DNA of 64,000 nucleotides, from positions 744,001 to 808,000 of the forward strand of contig NZ_FMAC01000002.1 of assembly GCF_900094555.1 (NCBI RefSeq), given 5' to 3'. This stretch comes from Martinezella hainanensis (GTDB lineage Bacteria; Pseudomonadota; Alphaproteobacteria; Rhizobiales; Rhizobiaceae). Positions 2,257 to 40,940 of the stretch are shown one piece after another. The stretch's first letter is position 1, and each line of letters opens with the position of its first letter. The notes below the pieces were generated by a model. It saw only the letters and a list, made by a program, of their open reading frames with translations. It was not told where the DNA came from and searched no databases. The translations under genes were made by a program, and so were the position numbers.

Positions 2257-3434
2257 GTAGCGCGCCGTTGAAGCTAGCAGTCGTTGCCGGAGAGGTTTCC
2301 GGCGATCTGCTGGGCGGCGATCTGGTCGCGGCCCTGAAGCGGCGCCACGATGGCCCGATCGAACTGGTGGGCGTTGGTGGCGAGGCGCTGGAAGCGCAGG
2401 GCCTGCGCTCGCTCTTCGATTATTCCGAACTCTCGATCATGGGATTCATTCAGGTCATCAAGCGGCTGCCGAAATTGCTGGCCCGCATCCGGCAGACGGC
2501 CGATGCGATCATTGCCGCAAAGCCCGACGTGCTTCTGATCATCGACAGCCCCGATTTCACCCATCGCGTTGCCAAGCGTGTGCGCAAGGCTCTGCCCAAT
2601 CTGCCGATCGTTAATTACGTCTGCCCCAGTGTCTGGGCGTGGAAGGAATATCGCGCGCAGCAGATGCTCGCCTATGTCGATCATGTGCTGGCCGTCTTGC
2701 CCTTCGAGCCTGCCGCCATGGAGCGCCTGGGCGGTCCGGCAACCACCTATGTCGGTCACCGTCTGACGGTCGACGTCAATCTTGTGGAGACCCGCCGCCA
2801 GCGTGCCTTGCGAGGACTGGCAGGCCCTGATGCGCAGAAGACGATCCTGCTTCTGCCCGGATCGCGTGCGTCGGAAATCAAGCAACTCCTTCTGGTTTTT
2901 GAGCGGGCTACCGAAGAGCTTAGTCGGCGAAATGATAATGTTCGTCTTCTCCTGCCGACGGTGCCGCGGCAGGAGGCATTGGTTCGTTCTTTGACGGCTA
3001 ATTGGCAGGTCAAGCCGCATATCTTTGTCGGCCAGGATGCCAAATGGAGCGCATTCGCGCAGGCGGATGCTGCCATGGCGGCCTCCGGCACGGTTATTCT
3101 GGAGCTGGGGCTTGCCGGCGTTCCCGTGGTCTCGACCTACAAGACCGAGTGGCTGGCGAAGTTCGTGCTGTCGCGCATCAAAATATGGACGGCAGCTCTG
3201 CCAAACCTGATTGCCGATTACGCGGTTCTGCCTGAGCTCATCAATGACGTTCTGCGGCCGGGCATATTGGCTCGCTATATGGAGCGACTGTCGAGTGAGA
3301 CGCCGGAGCGTGCGGCGATGCTGGCGGGCTACGATCTCGTCTGGGAGCGAATGCAGACCGAGGAGCCGCCCGGTGACAAGGCGGCGCAGATTGTTCTGGA
3401 CGTTCTATCCCATAAAAAAACCGGTCATCTCTGA
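2253..3434 (+). CDS. lpxB: LpxB, lipid-A-disaccharide synthase
   Basis: GT19 glycosyltransferase joining lipid X and UDP-diacylglucosamine to form the tetraacyl disaccharide on the inner membrane. The protein is 393 residues from a GTG start that overlaps the lpxI stop. The N-terminal AGEVSGDLLGG loop and the LLPGSRASEI nucleotide-binding motif near residue 205 are both present. The last codons, including the TGA, lie inside the terminator hairpin at 3414-3444, so the C-terminal tail HKKTGHL is partly dictated by that structure. It is the last gene of the lipid A cluster. Confidence 0.97.
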   Translation: MSSAPLKLAVVAGEVSGDLLGGDLVAALKRRHDGPIELVGVGGEALEAQGLRSLFDYSELSIMGFIQVIKRLPKLLARIRQTADAIIAAKPDVLLIIDSPDFTHRVAKRVRKALPNLPIVNYVCPSVWAWKEYRAQQMLAYVDHVLAVLPFEPAAMERLGGPATTYVGHRLTVDVNLVETRRQRALRGLAGPDAQKTILLLPGSRASEIKQLLLVFERATEELSRRNDNVRLLLPTVPRQEALVRSLTANWQVKPHIFVGQDAKWSAFAQADAAMAASGTVILELGLAGVPVVSTYKTEWLAKFVLSRIKIWTAALPNLIADYAVLPELINDVLRPGILARYMERLSSETPERAAMLAGYDLVWERMQTEEPPGDKAAQIVLDVLSHKKTGHL

Positions 3435-3444
3435 CCGGTTTTTT
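3414..3444. terminator. Bidirectional rho-independent terminator between lpxB and gltA
   Basis: Seven As, the arm CCGGTCA, a TCTC loop, the arm TGACCGG and six Ts form a hairpin with A and U tracts on opposite sides. It can therefore stop both the rightward lpx transcript and the leftward gltA transcript. The lpxB stop codon (3432-3434) is inside the hairpin. Confidence 0.9.
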
Positions 3445-16989: not shown

Positions 16990-18435
16990 ATGGCTGAGAA
17001 TTACGACGTCATTATCATCGGCTCCGGTCCGGGCGGTTATGTCGCCGCCGTGCGCGCCGGCCAGCTTGGCCTGAAGACCGCGATCGTCGAGCGCGAACAC
17101 CTGGGCGGCATCTGCCTCAACTGGGGCTGCATTCCCACTAAGGCACTGCTCCGTTCAGCCGAAATTCTCGATCATTCCAACCATCTGAAGGATTACGGCC
17201 TCGTTCTCGAAGGCAAGGTGAGCGCGGATGTGAAGGCAGTGGTCGCCCGCTCGCGCGGCGTCTCCGCCCGCCTCAACCAGGGCGTCGGCTTCCTGATGAA
17301 GAAGAACAAGGTCGATGTGATCTGGGGCGAAGCCAAGATCACCAAGCCCGGCGAGATCGTCGTCGGCAAGTCGACGAAGCCCGTCGTCGAGCCGCAGCAT
17401 CCGTTGCCGAAGAACGTCAAGGGCGAAGGCACTTATACCGCCAAGCACATCATCGTCGCGACCGGCGCCCGCCCGCGTGCGCTGCCGGGCATCGAGCCGG
17501 ACGGCAAGCTGATCTGGACCTATTTCGAAGCGCTGAAGCCGGACTTCCTGCCGAAGTCGCTGCTCGTGATGGGCTCTGGTGCTATCGGCATCGAATTCGC
17601 AAGCTTCTATCGCTCGATGGGCGTCGATGTCACCGTCGTCGAAGTCATGCCGACCATCATGCCCGTCGAAGACGCCGAAATCTCCGGTATCGCCCGCAAG
17701 CAGCTCGAGAAGCGCGGCCTGAAGATCTTCACCAAGGCGAAGGTCACGAAGGTCGACAAGGCCGCCAATTCGATCACCGCCCATGTCGAAACCGAAGACG
17801 GCAAGGTTCAGCAGATCGTTGCCGACCGCATGATCTCCGCCGTCGGCGTGCAGGGCAATATCGAGAACCTCGGCCTTGAGGCACTGGGCGTGAAGACCGA
17901 TCGCGGCTGCGTGGTCATCGACGGCTACGGCAAGACGAATGTTCCTGGCATCTATGCGATCGGCGACGTCGCCGGCCCGCCGATGCTGGCGCACAAGGCC
18001 GAGCACGAAGGGGTCGTCTGCATCGAAAAGATCGCCGGCCTGCCGAACGTCCATCCGACCGACAAGAGCAAGGTTCCGGGCTGCACCTATTGCCAGCCGC
18101 AGGTCGCTTCCGTCGGCCTCACTGAAGCCAAGGCCAAGGAACTCGGCCGCGACATCCGCGTCGGCCGTTTCTCCTTCGTTGCCAACGGCAAGGCGATTGC
18201 GCTCGGCGAAGATCAGGGTCTCTGCAAGGTCATATTCGACAAGAAGACCGGCGAGCTCCTCGGCGCGCATATGGTCGGCGCCGAAGTGACCGAACTCATC
18301 CAGGGCTTCGTCGTTGCGATGAACCTGGAGACGACGGAAGAAGAACTGATGCACACGATCTTCCCGCATCCGACCGTTTCGGAAACGATGAAGGAAGCCG
18401 TGCTGGACGCCTACGGCCGGGTGCTGAACGCTTGA
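16990..18435 (+). CDS. lpdA: LpdA, dihydrolipoamide dehydrogenase (E3)
   Basis: Flavoprotein that reoxidises dihydrolipoamide with NAD+. The 481 residues include the FAD loop IIGSGPGGYVAA (residue 11 on), the redox disulfide Cys42/Cys47 in GGICLNWGCIPTK, the NAD-binding GSGAIGIEFASF near 195 and the C-terminal His-Glu pair in FPHPTVSE. Its place after pdhC and the hydrolase indicates it serves the pyruvate dehydrogenase complex. It can also serve other lipoyl complexes whose genes are not in this window. Confidence 0.97.
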   Translation: MAENYDVIIIGSGPGGYVAAVRAGQLGLKTAIVEREHLGGICLNWGCIPTKALLRSAEILDHSNHLKDYGLVLEGKVSADVKAVVARSRGVSARLNQGVGFLMKKNKVDVIWGEAKITKPGEIVVGKSTKPVVEPQHPLPKNVKGEGTYTAKHIIVATGARPRALPGIEPDGKLIWTYFEALKPDFLPKSLLVMGSGAIGIEFASFYRSMGVDVTVVEVMPTIMPVEDAEISGIARKQLEKRGLKIFTKAKVTKVDKAANSITAHVETEDGKVQQIVADRMISAVGVQGNIENLGLEALGVKTDRGCVVIDGYGKTNVPGIYAIGDVAGPPMLAHKAEHEGVVCIEKIAGLPNVHPTDKSKVPGCTYCQPQVASVGLTEAKAKELGRDIRVGRFSFVANGKAIALGEDQGLCKVIFDKKTGELLGAHMVGAEVTELIQGFVVAMNLETTEEELMHTIFPHPTVSETMKEAVLDAYGRVLNA

Positions 18436-35610: not shown

Positions 35611-35781
35611 GGATTTCCTCCAGGAATTTCGGCTATAGTCTATCGGCATTGCCCACTCGACGGAATGCGCAAATGACGTATGGACCGCATTTGTCACAGG
35701 CAATAAAATCACCGCAGACGTCAGTCAATGATAAAAGTCTATAGATTTCCTATATTTATCTCGATCTGCTCGTCTGGTGAG

Positions 35782-35813
35782 TTTTGCTCAAATCCTTGAG
35801 ATGTCGAGCAAAA
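35782..35813. promoter_or_regulatory. Nested inverted repeat upstream of cysG
   Basis: Exact arms TTTTGCTC (35782-35789) and GAGCAAAA (35806-35813) flank an inner pair CTCAA/TTGAG. It lies about 90 bases before the cysG start, in the 294-base gap shared with the divergent deaminase, and could be an operator or a leader hairpin for the sulfite-reduction operon. Confidence 0.45.
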
Positions 35814-35904
35814 GAATACGCGCATGCATAGGCATTAGAATTTCTGTTTCTTCAATCTCTTGGCCGCAAGGGCGATATTCGCCAAATCTCGAAGTGGAAT
35901 AACG

Positions 35905-37341
35905 ATGCCTCCCAGGACTGAACAGCTTTCGGCGTTCCCCGCCTTCTTCCGTGTGGAAGGAAGGGTTACGGCTGTCTTCGGCAATGGCGACGAAGCCTTT
36001 GCCAAGGTGCGGCTGCTTCTGAATACGCAGGCGAGAATCGTTGCCTATGTGCAGTCGCCCGAGGCTGACTATCACGCCTTCCTCATCGCCAACCGGATTG
36101 AAACCGTACGCGGCGATTTCTCATCGGATCAGATCAAGGGCGCCGCGCTGGTCTTTGCCGCCACCGGTGACGCTGCGGCGGATCGCGCGATTGTCGATGC
36201 CGCCCGCGCCGAGAGAGTTCCGGCAAACGCCGTCGATCAGCCCGATTACTGCGATTTCTACACGCCGGCGCTGGTCAATCGCGCTCCCGTGGCCGTTGCC
36301 ATCGGCACGGAAGGCGCCGGTCCGGTACTGGCGCAAATGATCCGCGCGCAGATCGACCAGATGCTGTCGCCGTCGCTCGGCAAGCTGGCTGAGCTTGCGA
36401 CGCGTTTCCGCAAGCCGGTCGAGCACCTTGTGCCGCGCGGCGTTGCCCGCCGCATGTTCTGGCGGCAGTTCTTTTCAGGACCTGTCGCCGATGCCGTCAA
36501 TGCGGGCCATATCGCGCAGGCCGAGCAGGCGGCCGATGAGTTGCTGCAGTCGTCGCGTGAGGTTGAGGGCCGCGTCTGGCTGGTCGGCGCCGGCCCAGGT
36601 GCGGAAGATCTGCTGACCTTGCGGGCGCAGCGCGTGATGATGGAAGCCGATGTCATCGTCTATGACGCGCTTGTGCCACAGGCGATCGTCGATATGGGAC
36701 GGCGCGATGCTGAGCGTCTGTCCGTCGGCAAGCGCAAGGGATGCCACAGCAAGTCGCAGGAAGAGATCAACGATCTGTTGGTGCAGCTTGGCCGCGAAGG
36801 CAAGCGCGTCGTACGGCTGAAGTCGGGCGATCCGCTGGTTTATGGCCGTGCAGGCGAGGAAATGGCGGCCCTGCGTGCCGCCGGCATCGGCTATGAGATC
36901 GTTCCCGGCATCACCTCGGCCTTCGCTGCTGCTGCCGATTTCGAACTGCCGCTGACGCTGCGCGGCGTTGCCTCTTCGCTGGTCTTTACGACGGGTCACG
37001 ATCTTACAGGCGACGTGCTGCCCGATTGGGCAAGCCTGGCTGTATCCGGCGCCACGATTGCCGTATATATGGGACGCACGGTTGCCGCTTCCGTCGCCGG
37101 CCGTCTTATGCAGGCCGGTTTGCCGCCCGAGACGACCGTTGCCATCATCGAGAATGCCAGCCGGCGCGATCGCCGCTTGATGCACGGTATATTGCGGGAT
37201 CTGCCTGATCTCGAGCACCGCGATGAGCTGGGCGGGCCGGTCATGGTTATTATCGGCGATGCCGTCGCCGGCGCGAATTTTGAACAATCCGAGCCACTGG
37301 TCCGTCGCGAGGCCGCTGCTCGAGACTATGCAAGGAACTGA
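35905..37341 (+). CDS. cysG: CysG, multifunctional siroheme synthase
   Basis: Makes siroheme for sulfite reductase from uroporphyrinogen III. The 478 residues join an N-terminal dehydrogenase/ferrochelatase part (about 1-205, with VFGNGDEAFAKVRLLL as the nucleotide-binding loop) to a C-terminal SAM uroporphyrinogen methyltransferase (about 215-460, VWLVGAGPGAEDLLTLRA, RLKSGDPLVYGR, VPGITSA). ATG 35905 fits the family start; an upstream ATG at 35860 adds unsupported residues. DUF2849 follows 3 bases later, then cysI, the user of siroheme. Confidence 0.96.
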   Translation: MPPRTEQLSAFPAFFRVEGRVTAVFGNGDEAFAKVRLLLNTQARIVAYVQSPEADYHAFLIANRIETVRGDFSSDQIKGAALVFAATGDAAADRAIVDAARAERVPANAVDQPDYCDFYTPALVNRAPVAVAIGTEGAGPVLAQMIRAQIDQMLSPSLGKLAELATRFRKPVEHLVPRGVARRMFWRQFFSGPVADAVNAGHIAQAEQAADELLQSSREVEGRVWLVGAGPGAEDLLTLRAQRVMMEADVIVYDALVPQAIVDMGRRDAERLSVGKRKGCHSKSQEEINDLLVQLGREGKRVVRLKSGDPLVYGRAGEEMAALRAAGIGYEIVPGITSAFAAAADFELPLTLRGVASSLVFTTGHDLTGDVLPDWASLAVSGATIAVYMGRTVAASVAGRLMQAGLPPETTVAIIENASRRDRRLMHGILRDLPDLEHRDELGGPVMVIIGDAVAGANFEQSEPLVRREAAARDYARN

Positions 37342-37344
37342 TTA

Positions 37345-37659
37345 ATGGTCGACAAGGTTCTGACCGCAAACCGGCTCACCGATGGCGTCGCCGTCTGGCT
37401 GAACGCAAATGGTGAGTGGGTGGTATCGCTGCAGGAAGCGCTGGTCGCTCGCCATGCCGAAGCGGAAGCCGCTCTGGAAGCGATCGGCAAGCAGGCCTAT
37501 GCCGACAACAAGGTTGTCGACGTCAATCTGATCGACGTACAGGAAACCGGCGGCAAGCTCTGGCCGCTGCGCTTGCGCGAGCGTATCCGCGCCGAAGGCC
37601 CAACCATGGAATACGCGCCGGGCTACGCCGCGGCCGATCCCGATTTCATTGCAGTCTGA
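37345..37659 (+). CDS. DUF2849 protein of the sulfite reduction operon
   Basis: A 104-residue soluble protein (MVDKVLTANRLTDGVAVWL...) of the DUF2849 family, in which the gene almost always precedes cysI in alphaproteobacteria. The sequence shows an N-terminal strand-rich region and an acidic helix (about 30-50) and lacks cysteines, so it is not a ferredoxin. It starts 3 bases after cysG and ends 17 bases before cysI. Function unknown; a helper in sulfite reductase assembly or electron delivery is inference from context only. Confidence 0.85.
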   Translation: MVDKVLTANRLTDGVAVWLNANGEWVVSLQEALVARHAEAEAALEAIGKQAYADNKVVDVNLIDVQETGGKLWPLRLRERIRAEGPTMEYAPGYAAADPDFIAV

Positions 37660-37676: not shown

Positions 37677-39356
37677 ATGTATCGTTACGATGAATTCGAC
37701 CACGCCTTCGTTGCGGAACGGGTTGCCCAGTTCCGCGATCAGGTGGAGCGACGCCTCTCGGGTGAGCTTTCGGAAGATGCCTTCAAGCCGCTGCGCCTGA
37801 TGAACGGCGTCTATCTGCAGCTTCATGCCTACATGCTGCGCATCGCCATTCCCTATGGCACGCTGAGCTCGCGCCAGATGCGCATGCTCGCCCACGTCGC
37901 GCGCACCTATGACCGCGGTTACGGCCACTTCACCACGCGTCAGAACCTGCAGTTCAACTGGCCGAAGCTCTCCGAAATGCCCGATGCGCTGGCCGATCTC
38001 GCTTCGGTCGAAATGCACGCCATCCAGACTTCGGGCAACTGCATTCGCAACGTGACGGCCGACCATTTCGCCGGCGCCGCGGCTGACGAAGTCGCCGACC
38101 CCCGACCCTACGCCGAAATTCTGCGCCAGTGGTCGTCGGTTCATCCGGAATTCTCGTTCCTGCCGCGCAAGTTCAAGATCGCCGTCACCGGTGCGGAGCG
38201 CGACCGCGCCGCGATCCAGGTGCATGATATCGGCCTGCATCTGAAGAAGAATAACAAGGGCGAGATCGGCTTTGCTGTCTACGTCGGAGGCGGGCAGGGC
38301 CGCACGCCGCTCGTCGCCAAACTCATCCGCGACTTCCTCCCGGAAGAGGATCTCCTGTCCTACACGACGGCGATCATGCGTGTTTACAACCTGCATGGCC
38401 GCCGCGACAACAAGTACAAGGCGCGCATCAAGATCCTCGTGCATGAAACCGGCGCCGAAGAACTGGCACGTCAGGTCGAGGTCGAATTCGACAAGCTGAA
38501 AGACACCGAACTGAAGCTGCCGGAAGCCGATGTTCAGGCCATCTCCGCCTATTTCGCGCCGCCGGCACTGCCACAGCGTGCCGAAGGCTGGGAAAGCCTG
38601 GCGCACTGGAAGAAGGCCGATCCGGCCTTTGCCCGCTGGGTGCAGCAGAATGTGCAACCGCACAAGAATCCCGATTACGGCATGGTGACGATCTCGCTGA
38701 AGCCGATCGGCGGCATTCCGGGCGATGCCTCGGATGCTCAGATGGACGCCGTCGCCGATATCGCCGAGGAATATGCCTTCGACGAAATCCGCGTCAGCCA
38801 TGAGCAGAATCTGATCCTGCCGCACGTCGCATTGGCCGATCTCGAAGCCGTCTATCGTGGCTTGGTGGCCAATGGTCTGGAGACGGCGAATGCCGGCCTG
38901 ATCACCGATATCATCGCCTGTCCCGGTCTCGACTATTGCGCCCTTGCCAATGCGCGCTCGATCCCGGTTGCGCAGGAGATTTCCGCGCGATTTGGCTCGC
39001 CTGAGCGCCAGGCCGAGATCGGCGAGTTGAAGATCAAGATTTCCGGCTGCATCAATGCCTGCGGCCATCACCATGTCGGCCATATCGGCCTGCTTGGTGT
39101 GGAGAAGAAGGGCGCGGAACTCTACCAGATCACGCTCGGCGGCTCCGGCGACGAGAATACGTCGATCGGCGAAATCATCGGGCGTGGCTTCGAGCCCGAC
39201 AAGGTGACGGATGCCATCGAGACCATCGTCGATACCTATCTTGGCCTTCGCCTAGATCCCTCCGAAACCTTCCTCGTCGCCTATCGTCGCGTCGGGCCGC
39301 AGCCGTTCAAGACCGCGCTTTACGGCGCGTCCTCGTCGGCAGCCGAAGCGGCGTAA
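37677..39356 (+). CDS. cysI: CysI, nitrite/sulfite reductase hemoprotein
   Basis: Siroheme and [4Fe-4S] enzyme reducing sulfite to sulfide for cysteine synthesis. The 559 residues have two ferredoxin-like halves (YGTLSSRQMRMLAHVA and its repeat) and the cluster/siroheme ligands CPGLDYC (CX5C) and CINAC (CX3C) near residue 460. Arg-rich YGHFTTRQNLQFNW is the substrate-binding segment. The frame extends upstream through DUF2849 as a shadow; ATG 37677 has GAGG just before it. The size and neighbours (DUF2849, DUF934, fpr) point to a ferredoxin- or flavoprotein-supplied sulfite reductase rather than nitrite use. Confidence 0.95.
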   Translation: MYRYDEFDHAFVAERVAQFRDQVERRLSGELSEDAFKPLRLMNGVYLQLHAYMLRIAIPYGTLSSRQMRMLAHVARTYDRGYGHFTTRQNLQFNWPKLSEMPDALADLASVEMHAIQTSGNCIRNVTADHFAGAAADEVADPRPYAEILRQWSSVHPEFSFLPRKFKIAVTGAERDRAAIQVHDIGLHLKKNNKGEIGFAVYVGGGQGRTPLVAKLIRDFLPEEDLLSYTTAIMRVYNLHGRRDNKYKARIKILVHETGAEELARQVEVEFDKLKDTELKLPEADVQAISAYFAPPALPQRAEGWESLAHWKKADPAFARWVQQNVQPHKNPDYGMVTISLKPIGGIPGDASDAQMDAVADIAEEYAFDEIRVSHEQNLILPHVALADLEAVYRGLVANGLETANAGLITDIIACPGLDYCALANARSIPVAQEISARFGSPERQAEIGELKIKISGCINACGHHHVGHIGLLGVEKKGAELYQITLGGSGDENTSIGEIIGRGFEPDKVTDAIETIVDTYLGLRLDPSETFLVAYRRVGPQPFKTALYGASSSAAEAA

Positions 39357-39367
39357 GGAGATTGACC

Positions 39368-39880
39368 ATGACGAAGATCTGGCGGGAAACCGGTTTCGTG
39401 GAAAATGATCCGTGGGTTATCGAGACCGACGAGGTCAAGGCGAATGAGACGCAGAAACCTCTTCTGAGCATTGATGCGCTGATCGCAAGGGCTGAAGAAA
39501 GCAACGACGTCGGCCTCGGCGTCGTCATCAAGCCGGCTGACGATGTCACCCGGCTGCAGCCCTATCTCGATCGCCTCGATATCGTCGCGGTCGCCTTTCC
39601 GGCATTCAGCGATGGTCGCGCCTTCAGCCATGCCTCGCTGCTGCGCCAGCGCCTGGGTTATGCCAGGGAGTTGCGTGCCGTCGGCGACGTGCTGATCGAT
39701 CAGGTACCGTTGATGCTGCGCGTCGGCGTCGACAGTTTCGCTGTGACGAATGAGACCGCGCTGAAAAGATTGTCGGAAAACCGCTTGCCGGGTATTCCGC
39801 ACTATTACCAGCCGACCGCACGCCGCGCCGAAGGCGGTCAGGCCTACAGCTGGCGGCGTTTGCCGGCGAAGTCGGCCTGA
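39368..39880 (+). CDS. DUF934 protein of the sulfite reduction operon
   Basis: A 170-residue soluble DUF934 protein. AAGGAG seven bases upstream fixes ATG 39368. It contains the family blocks VVIKPADDVTRLQPYLDRLDIVAVAFPAFSDGRAFS (about 45-80) and RQRLGYARELRAVGDVLIDQ (about 88-107). DUF934 genes follow cysI in many proteobacteria, and some are called oxidoreductase-associated, but no cofactor motif is seen here. Function is unknown beyond probable support of sulfite reduction. Confidence 0.88.
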   Translation: MTKIWRETGFVENDPWVIETDEVKANETQKPLLSIDALIARAEESNDVGLGVVIKPADDVTRLQPYLDRLDIVAVAFPAFSDGRAFSHASLLRQRLGYARELRAVGDVLIDQVPLMLRVGVDSFAVTNETALKRLSENRLPGIPHYYQPTARRAEGGQAYSWRRLPAKSA

Positions 39881-39974
39881 TGTCGAAAGACGCGCTCTGT
39901 TGCGGCAATTTGACGGTGTCGGATTGCCGTATTCAGGCCTTTCGAATGATGTAAGGTCGGTGAATTGGAATCTT

Positions 39975-39998
39975 GACTGAAATATACATATTTCAGTC
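39975..39998. promoter_or_regulatory. Perfect inverted repeat upstream of fpr
   Basis: Arms GACTGAAATA (39975-39984) and TATTTCAGTC (39989-39998) are exact complements around TACA. It lies 130 bases before the fpr start in a 247-base gap. No T run follows, so it reads as an operator rather than a terminator. Confidence 0.6.
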
Positions 39999-40127
39999 CT
40001 GTGTCGTCGGTTGGAATGGAATGCCTTTCAAAACCGACTATATTATAATATCAGCGTCGCGAAATGAGCCTGCCAGGAAAGACGTGCCAGGGAATACGTG
40101 TAAGACTAATACGGGATCCGAGACAGA

Positions 40128-40940
40128 ATGAACGCCCCCGCAAAGACAGATGAATTTGCTTCAGCAGTGCCCGCCGGCGTCTTCGCCGAGAAGGTGCTGA
40201 GCGTCACGCATTATACCGACCGGCTCTTCCGCTTCACCATGACCCGGCCGCAAGGCTTCCGCTTCCGCTCCGGCGAATTCGCCATGATCGGTCTGATGGT
40301 CGATGGCAAGCCGCTGTATCGCGCCTATTCGATCGCAAGCCCAGCCTGGGCCGACGAGCTTGAATTCTTCTCCATCAAGGTGCCGGATGGTCCGCTGACC
40401 TCGCATCTGCAGAACATCAAGCCAGGCGACGAAGTGCTGATGCGCAAGAAGCCGACCGGTACGCTGGTTCTGGATGCGCTGACCCCAGGCCGTCGCCTGT
40501 ACATGTTCTCCACCGGCACCGGCATCGCGCCGTTTGCGAGCCTGATCCGCGATCCGGAAACCTATGAGAAGTATGAGGAAGTCATCCTCACCCACACGAC
40601 GCGCGATGTCGCCGAGCTGAAATACGGTTTCGATCTCGTCGAGGAAATCCGCAACGACGAGATTCTGAGCGAAGTGGTTGGCGACAAGCTGCGTCATTAC
40701 GCGACTGTCACCCGCGAGGAGTTCCCCTTCACCGGTCGCATCACCGATCTCATCGAGAATGGCAAGCTTTTCAGCGATCTCGGCGTGCCGCCACTCGATC
40801 CCGCGATCGATCGCGGCATGATCTGCGGCTCTTCTGCTATGCTGAAGGACACCAAGGGGCTTCTTGAAAAGGCCGGCCTGAACGAAGGTGCCAACAACAA
40901 GCCGGCTGAGTTCGTCATCGAACGCGCTTTCGTCGGTTGA
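40128..40940 (+). CDS. fpr: Fpr, ferredoxin-NADP+ reductase
   Basis: FAD enzyme moving electrons between NADPH and ferredoxin or flavodoxin. The 270 residues show the FAD-binding RAYSIASP near residue 65, FSIKVPDGPLTSHL near 83, the NADP site STGTGIAPFASLIRD near 128 and the C-terminal AFVG that covers the flavin in the bacterial class. Placed after cysG-cysI, it is the obvious candidate to feed electrons to the sulfite reductase, though it has its own upstream region with an operator-like palindrome. A two-way terminator follows. Confidence 0.96.
   Translation: MNAPAKTDEFASAVPAGVFAEKVLSVTHYTDRLFRFTMTRPQGFRFRSGEFAMIGLMVDGKPLYRAYSIASPAWADELEFFSIKVPDGPLTSHLQNIKPGDEVLMRKKPTGTLVLDALTPGRRLYMFSTGTGIAPFASLIRDPETYEKYEEVILTHTTRDVAELKYGFDLVEEIRNDEILSEVVGDKLRHYATVTREEFPFTGRITDLIENGKLFSDLGVPPLDPAIDRGMICGSSAMLKDTKGLLEKAGLNEGANNKPAEFVIERAFVG

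Follow-up and report, generated by a model that had tools for sequence, protein, structure and literature searches.

The sequence considered here lies in a 64,000-nucleotide stretch of DNA (the whole of which is termed the window), where genes for sulfite reduction are followed by a gene for a ferredoxin-NADP+ reductase. The gene order is cysG, DUF2849, cysI, DUF934 and then, after 247 nt of intergenic DNA, fpr, behind which lies a convergent gene for a GntR/FCD regulator. The name cysI is taken from a preliminary description of this DNA and from the gene's context, its reading frame having been checked; fpr has as its best PDB match 2bgi, a ferredoxin-NADP(H) reductase (E 6.7e-102). The genes, together with the inverted repeat that is the starting point of this analysis, are as follows:

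35905..37341, + strand: cysG, siroheme synthase, which opens the upstream sulfite-reduction unit
37345..37659, + strand: DUF2849 gene
37677..39356, + strand: cysI, sulfite reductase haemoprotein
39362..39880, + strand: DUF934 gene, last of the cysG-cysI unit
39975..39998, no strand assigned: mismatch-free 11-2-11 inverted repeat, the distal dyad of the promoter module described below (sequence check; symmetry peak across 84 sequences)
40128..40940, + strand: fpr, ferredoxin-NADP+ reductase, 270 aa
40998..41714, - strand: GntR/FCD regulator gene, convergent with fpr and 3' of it

The arms and spacer of the repeat read GACTGAAATAT-AC-ATATTTCAGTC, with the inner T/A pair matched too; what had been described as a perfect 10-4-10 repeat is thus present without a mismatch, its actual form being 11-2-11. 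It is centred at 39986.5, begins 94 nt after the end of the DUF934 gene (39880) and ends 129 nt before the ATG of fpr (40128). Perfect repeats whose arms reach 10 or more, with a spacer of 0-10, number five in the window, and the longest (13-4-13, AAAAAACCGGTCA-N4-TGACCGGTTTTTT, 3415-3444) has a run of T at its end and is terminator-like; only when this one is set aside is the fpr repeat, as had been claimed, the longest palindrome in a regulatory region. When the whole window was simulated with a first-order Markov model, an arm of at least 11 (spacer 0-10) arose in 11 of 40 runs and is therefore unremarkable window-wide, but it arose in just 1 of 4000 simulations of the 247-nt DUF934-fpr intergenic region, where it is rare. 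The genome-wide search that had been proposed for the repeat found no second place for its 22-nt core within 3 mismatches in the strain's own 7.25-Mb genome.

The object that is conserved among relatives is larger than the repeat. The fpr gene itself is at least 86% identical in 35 of 36 same-genus relatives (the exception being G003, 82% complete), and is preceded in Rhizobium by a module, TGA-N10-CATATTTC-N19-GAATGGA.T.CCTTT.A-N13-T.TAATATC, of about 76 bp and of invariant internal spacing, whose elements in the window are:

39974..39994, + strand: distal element TGA-N10-CATATTTC, in which CATATTT is invariant in 30/30 loci
40013..40029, + strand: proximal element GGAATGGAATGCCTTTC, which covers the -35 region and forms a weaker dyad (conservation and symmetry scan)
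40044..40049, + strand: putative -10 hexamer TATAAT (TRTAAT in 28/30 loci, always at the same distance)

This module stands before fpr in 30/30 Rhizobium loci, where it shows 0-2 mismatches and its spacing never changes, the distance from module to ATG varying between 48 and 76 nt; it also stands before fpr, equally close to the pattern (0-2 mismatches) and identically spaced, in 35/35 longer Rhizobium loci. When genome_contigs was scanned for exact copies of the core, 89 stretches were found; all 80 that were listed belong to Rhizobium or to a Rhizobiales bacterium, and an fpr start lies downstream of the core in each of the 76 testable ones, the other 4 ending too early. (The sets of 30 loci, 35 longer loci and 76 testable stretches overlap.) Hence the site belongs, as had been supposed, to fpr's own promoter; and the motif, whose absence from relatives' fpr promoters had been named as evidence against it, is kept in the form of the module by every one of the longer Rhizobium loci. 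Across the 30 loci conservation peaks in the distal element, in the proximal element and at -10, the spacer being far less conserved; the proximal block, GGAATGGAATGCCTTTM, covers the -35 region and is weakly symmetric.

Outside the genus the full module is lost from view: allowing at most 3 mismatches, it was found among 297 genomes of the family in 5 of the same genus and in 0 of the 292 others. Of 28 other-genus loci 10 nevertheless contain part of the proximal block, GGAA-N7-CCTT, and 6 (all among the 22 closest) have it together with TRTAWT at the window's distance, a combination seen in 0 of 500 shuffled sets. Part of the fpr promoter is on these grounds probably older than the genus, though even GGAA-N7-CCTT is missing from 12 of the 22 closest other-genus loci.

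These comparisons bear on a first alternative, namely that the cysG-cysI transcript ends at the repeat, which would act in the RNA as a hairpin or terminator. Its position after the DUF934 gene would suit such a role, and a 56-nt stretch does fold as a stem (-13.6 kcal/mol); yet the z-score is -1.66, with 18 of 200 shuffles folding equally well, and no intrinsic terminator (a G+C-rich stem followed by a T run) was found in 39860-40140. Moreover, the stem is not kept in relatives, while the module is kept, at 0 mismatches, in 21/21 longer Rhizobium loci without cys genes in the fetched flanks. We regard this explanation as extremely improbable.

The symmetry of the repeat has to be considered apart from its conservation. 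A perfect palindrome is present in 2 of the 30 loci and in 4 of the 80 listed sequences (overlapping sets), the distal element being asymmetric in most species: the right half, CATATTTC, with the right inner arm, is constant, and the left arm varies. Measured against the window's arms, 8 cells show compensated changes, 139 show one-sided changes and 10 are altered on both sides without pairing. The proposal that an exact palindrome is the recognised feature is thus not supported, and what is conserved is the larger module that includes the -35 region.

It may even be that the perfect symmetry is a chance refinement of a single conserved half-site and that only the asymmetric module is functional, a view that is compatible with the activator reading developed below and to which we give a little less than an even chance. 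The rarity of the perfect form in the listed sequences (4/80) accords with it, as does the appearance of repeats of such length in 11 of 40 simulated windows; so too does the number of complementary cells, which at 181 of 330 compares with a column-shuffle mean of 174. Against this, that number was reached by just 29 of 2000 column shuffles, and a symmetry scan of 264 centres over 84 unique sequences from the genus gave the highest mean complementarity (0.538; overall mean 0.255, sd 0.080) to the palindrome centre. The next centres, in the -35 block, scored 0.528, 0.503 and 0.491; because a centre in the little-conserved spacer scored 0.489, close to these, the second (-35) dyad is the more weakly supported of the two. 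We read the distal element, from its pattern of sequence variation, as a true dyad whose symmetry is in general imperfect but is complete in the window's sub-lineage, and the second dyad as less certain.

A dyad of this kind could also be a simple operator, at which a dimeric repressor binds the palindrome before fpr. The window strain, with its long perfect dyad, would fit such an operator well, and positions 5 and 22 are complementary in 32 of 79 sequences as against 15.9 expected, through C-G, T-A and G-C types, relatedness being uncontrolled in this comparison. The centre of the dyad lies, however, about 70 bp upstream of the predicted start site, a distance from which a repressor would not directly obstruct polymerase; the left arm is variable and the right inner arm fixed; and the constant distance to the -35 block suggests cooperation with it instead. 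Repression of this type seems unlikely.

The geometry of the module points rather to activation, and the reading that we favour, with somewhat better than even confidence, is that the repeat is the distal site of an activator-dependent fpr promoter having the layout of a LysR-type system. If transcription starts about 7 nt after the putative -10 hexamer, then the distal dyad would lie at about -70 and the proximal block at about -35, an arrangement that would correspond to the recognition site and the activation site of a LysR-type tetramer. In the presence of its signal, an activator occupying the distal dyad would make contact with the proximal site and thereby help RNA polymerase to start; dependence upon an activator is proposed because the -35 hexamer (TGCCTT) is poor. 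LysR-type regulators are described as having a footprint of 50-60 bp, with a recognition site near -65 and an activation site over -35 (PMC8407307, available in part). The centre of the dyad, at about -69/-70 from the predicted start, fits a dyad recognition site around -65; the distal element and the -35 block take up 62 bp in all, compared with the 50-60 bp of a LysR footprint, and the symmetry of the -35 block is weak. The LysR box T-N11-A is not conserved in the distal element, where T-N9-A is the best form (96%, with T-N10-A at 76%); in the proximal element T-N11-A reaches 74%. When the window stretch and 40 longer loci were searched with thirteen LysR queries, no LysR gene turned up close to fpr; among 55 other loci, some with shorter flanks, the one LysR gene to turn up was a convergent one in L111. 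Among regulator types, LysR would appear to be the best fit to this geometry.

Control through the module is likely to be specific to fpr, as is suggested by the presence of one strong site per genome. Among 19 genus genomes, which include the window's own, 18 have strong matches to a sequence model, R1, of 62 positions, and these lie solely in front of fpr. For this model 150 candidates were scored per genome, and the next best match had an E of 0.0081; given the number of candidates scored, weak or diverged targets may be missed. A pattern built on the -35 and -10 elements, with 3 mismatches, led to those same fpr places in these 18 genomes; neither G003 nor 12 genomes of other genera gave a match. 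The preliminary description had envisaged dedicated control of fpr, separate from the cysG-cysI unit. The dedicated part of this proposal is now likely, there being no strong second copy in the 19 genus genomes, and its separateness is upheld by comparison by eye, in which the fpr site is unlike the region before cysG. (In G016:C1 there are two equal-scoring fpr places, at 17096 and 4019734, near the ends of a 4.02-Mb contig; these are probably the overlapping ends of a circular replicon.)

Lesser matches led to no further promoter of this build. Fifteen stretches taken from a longer list of half-site matches comprise 8 inside long open frames, 5 from one conserved promoter of a cupin-like gene and 2 intergenic ones, none with the -35 block in the context displayed. 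Five of the weak R1 matches comprise 2 in long open frames, 1 that is ambiguous and 2 that represent a single place found in two genomes, where the -35 block is absent. The promoter of the cupin-like gene (L074, L079, L080, L081 and L087) reads ACTAAGTKATGC....A.GCATATTTCTGTGTGCTTT and has the half-site GCATATTTC in common with the fpr promoter; in the L074 group it precedes a cupin-like and a metallo-beta-lactamase-like gene (names assigned by eye), the half-site in L074 lying on the complement strand, 84 nt before a cupin-like gene of 100 aa. At L076, in the strain's own genome, a half-site with one mismatch overlaps the start of a LysR-like gene that is divergent from another gene; it is not among the half-site matches of relatives.

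Patterns of known regulators were compared with 80 unique fpr promoters. Those of LsrB/VtlR (GCAT-N3-TG-N3-T and TGCA-N6-GCAT) each occur in 0/80, as does the FinR site (TATCCATATTCTGGATA-like) in the form TATCCA-N5-TGGATA; CRP/FNR-like and OxyR-like patterns occur in 0/80 each, and a RirA-like pattern in 1/80.

One specific form of the activator reading is that the activator of fpr is a YeiE-like LysR protein encoded elsewhere in the strain's genome (L117, G000:C19:892591-893451). Its gene, which of all those in the genome matches E. coli YeiE most closely (33%), lies opposite a yeiH-like gene (by eye), its product matches YeiE chains in the PDB, and its relative FinR acts on fprA of Pseudomonas aeruginosa, with a proposed site at -46 to -83 (PMC5302815, available in part). 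Yet the sequence TATCCA-N5-TGGATA is, as noted, absent from the 80 fpr promoters, and the conserved sequence upstream of the YeiE-like gene itself, read in 10 of the 11 relatives found, is unlike the fpr module. At a single cut-off of E 1e-70, 4 of 16 genus genomes (G001, G007, G009 and G012, with 98 of 107 candidates scored in G007) gave no match to the protein, and all four keep the module; in 5 more its identity is just 48-65%. Its score does not reach the NCBIfam cut-off for YeiE; a selenium-metabolism LysR model gives a higher score, which is likewise short of that model's own cut-off. For these reasons the YeiE-like protein is quite an unlikely activator. Between the YeiE-like and yeiH-like genes there is, in close relatives, a conserved sequence of the form ATCGAATATTATCC...TTCGATAA.

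The neighbouring GntR/FCD protein, were it to regulate fpr through the repeat, would offer another solution, and its gene adjoins fpr in 35/35 longer genus loci. The palindrome that recurs before gntR is, however, TGATATATCA (by eye), which is found in 0/80 fpr promoters, and gntR was seen in just 7 of the 22 closest other-genus loci, whose flanks are short. Because TGATATATCA-like sites precede gntR in many relatives, GntR is probably not the regulator of fpr; we rate its involvement as very unlikely.

Comparison with described systems helps to place the activator reading. FinR and fprA of P. aeruginosa, where the regulator is of LysR type, resemble the present case in that a ferredoxin-NADP reductase gene has a proposed dyad at such a distance upstream (PMC5302815, available in part); they differ in the sequence of the site, and in that the FinR gene is divergent from fprA, while none was found beside fpr here. 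The LsrB/VtlR promoters of Sinorhizobium, Agrobacterium and Brucella (abcR1, nfeR1) likewise depend, in the available portions of the literature, on LysR activators of Alphaproteobacteria whose site lies ahead of a sigma-70 promoter, but their site patterns are those missing from the fpr promoters. The YeiE-yeiH sulfite response of Salmonella involves a sulfite-linked LysR regulator with a relative in the strain's own genome, before which, however, the conserved sequence differs from the fpr module. In the fpr2-cysIXHDNYZ cluster of Corynebacterium glutamicum, as far as the available portions of the sources go, an fpr gene is again grouped with sulfite reductase genes, but in another phylum. 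We know of no such module for that cluster. The fprA of PMC8822346 (available in part) is a siderophore receptor, a different gene from the fpr considered here. Further background is given in PMC7486931, PMC8844928, PMC10746234, PMC12880088, PMC9068703 and PMC9045290 (each available in part).

As to the signal, the setting of fpr among its relatives is informative. The cys genes adjoin fpr in 14 of the 35 longer genus loci; cysI and DUF934 adjoin it in 21 of the 22 closest other-genus loci but, side by side with fpr, in 0 of the 6 less similar loci (L110-L115). In loci from other families of the order (L068-L072) cysI is beside fpr in 2 of 5, and at the level of the class DUF934 is found in 1 of 27 loci (1.5-kb flanks). 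Since this neighbourhood fades with distance, the link to sulfite reduction is common to near relatives and not general. We infer that fpr can feed electrons to CysI; and a sulfur signal is plausible because fpr adjoins cysI-DUF934 in nearly all of the closest other-genus loci, though it seldom does so in more distant ones. The signal acting on fpr would thus, judging from gene order, most likely be linked to sulfite reduction or to redox demand.

The cysG-cysI unit has conserved upstream sequences of its own. The leader of cysG (35778-35905) contains an inverted repeat, GTTTTGCTC...GAGCAAAAGAATACG, that is followed by a conserved stretch; both are kept in most of 15 aligned loci, and the leader has no Rfam match up to E 1. 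A separate AT-rich block before cysG, CTATAGATTTCCTATATTT, at 35739-35757, is retained in altered form by most of these 15 loci; it is unlike the fpr module.

A literature search covering mainly open-access papers found no publication on the fpr promoter module. The element is real, well conserved and of an ordinary regulatory kind; what is new is how rigidly it is built, that it has a single strong target and how widely it occurs in Rhizobium. The exact palindrome is its least general part. We tentatively suggest, as a possibility well short of an even chance, a one-promoter regulon: a Rhizobium regulator not described before, possibly of LysR type, with fpr as its sole strong target, would act through two sites about 35 bp apart and, independently of the cys genes, adjust the provision of reduced ferredoxin to the needs of sulfite reductase.

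The module provides an exact bait for pull-down of the protein that binds it, and an exact pattern by which the fpr promoter can be recognised in new genomes. In Rhizobium, then, the electron supplier fpr has a rigid promoter of its own even where it lies away from the sulfite reductase genes; and the identity of the activator would show which signal sets the supply of reduced ferredoxin in this genus, many species of which are nitrogen-fixing symbionts.
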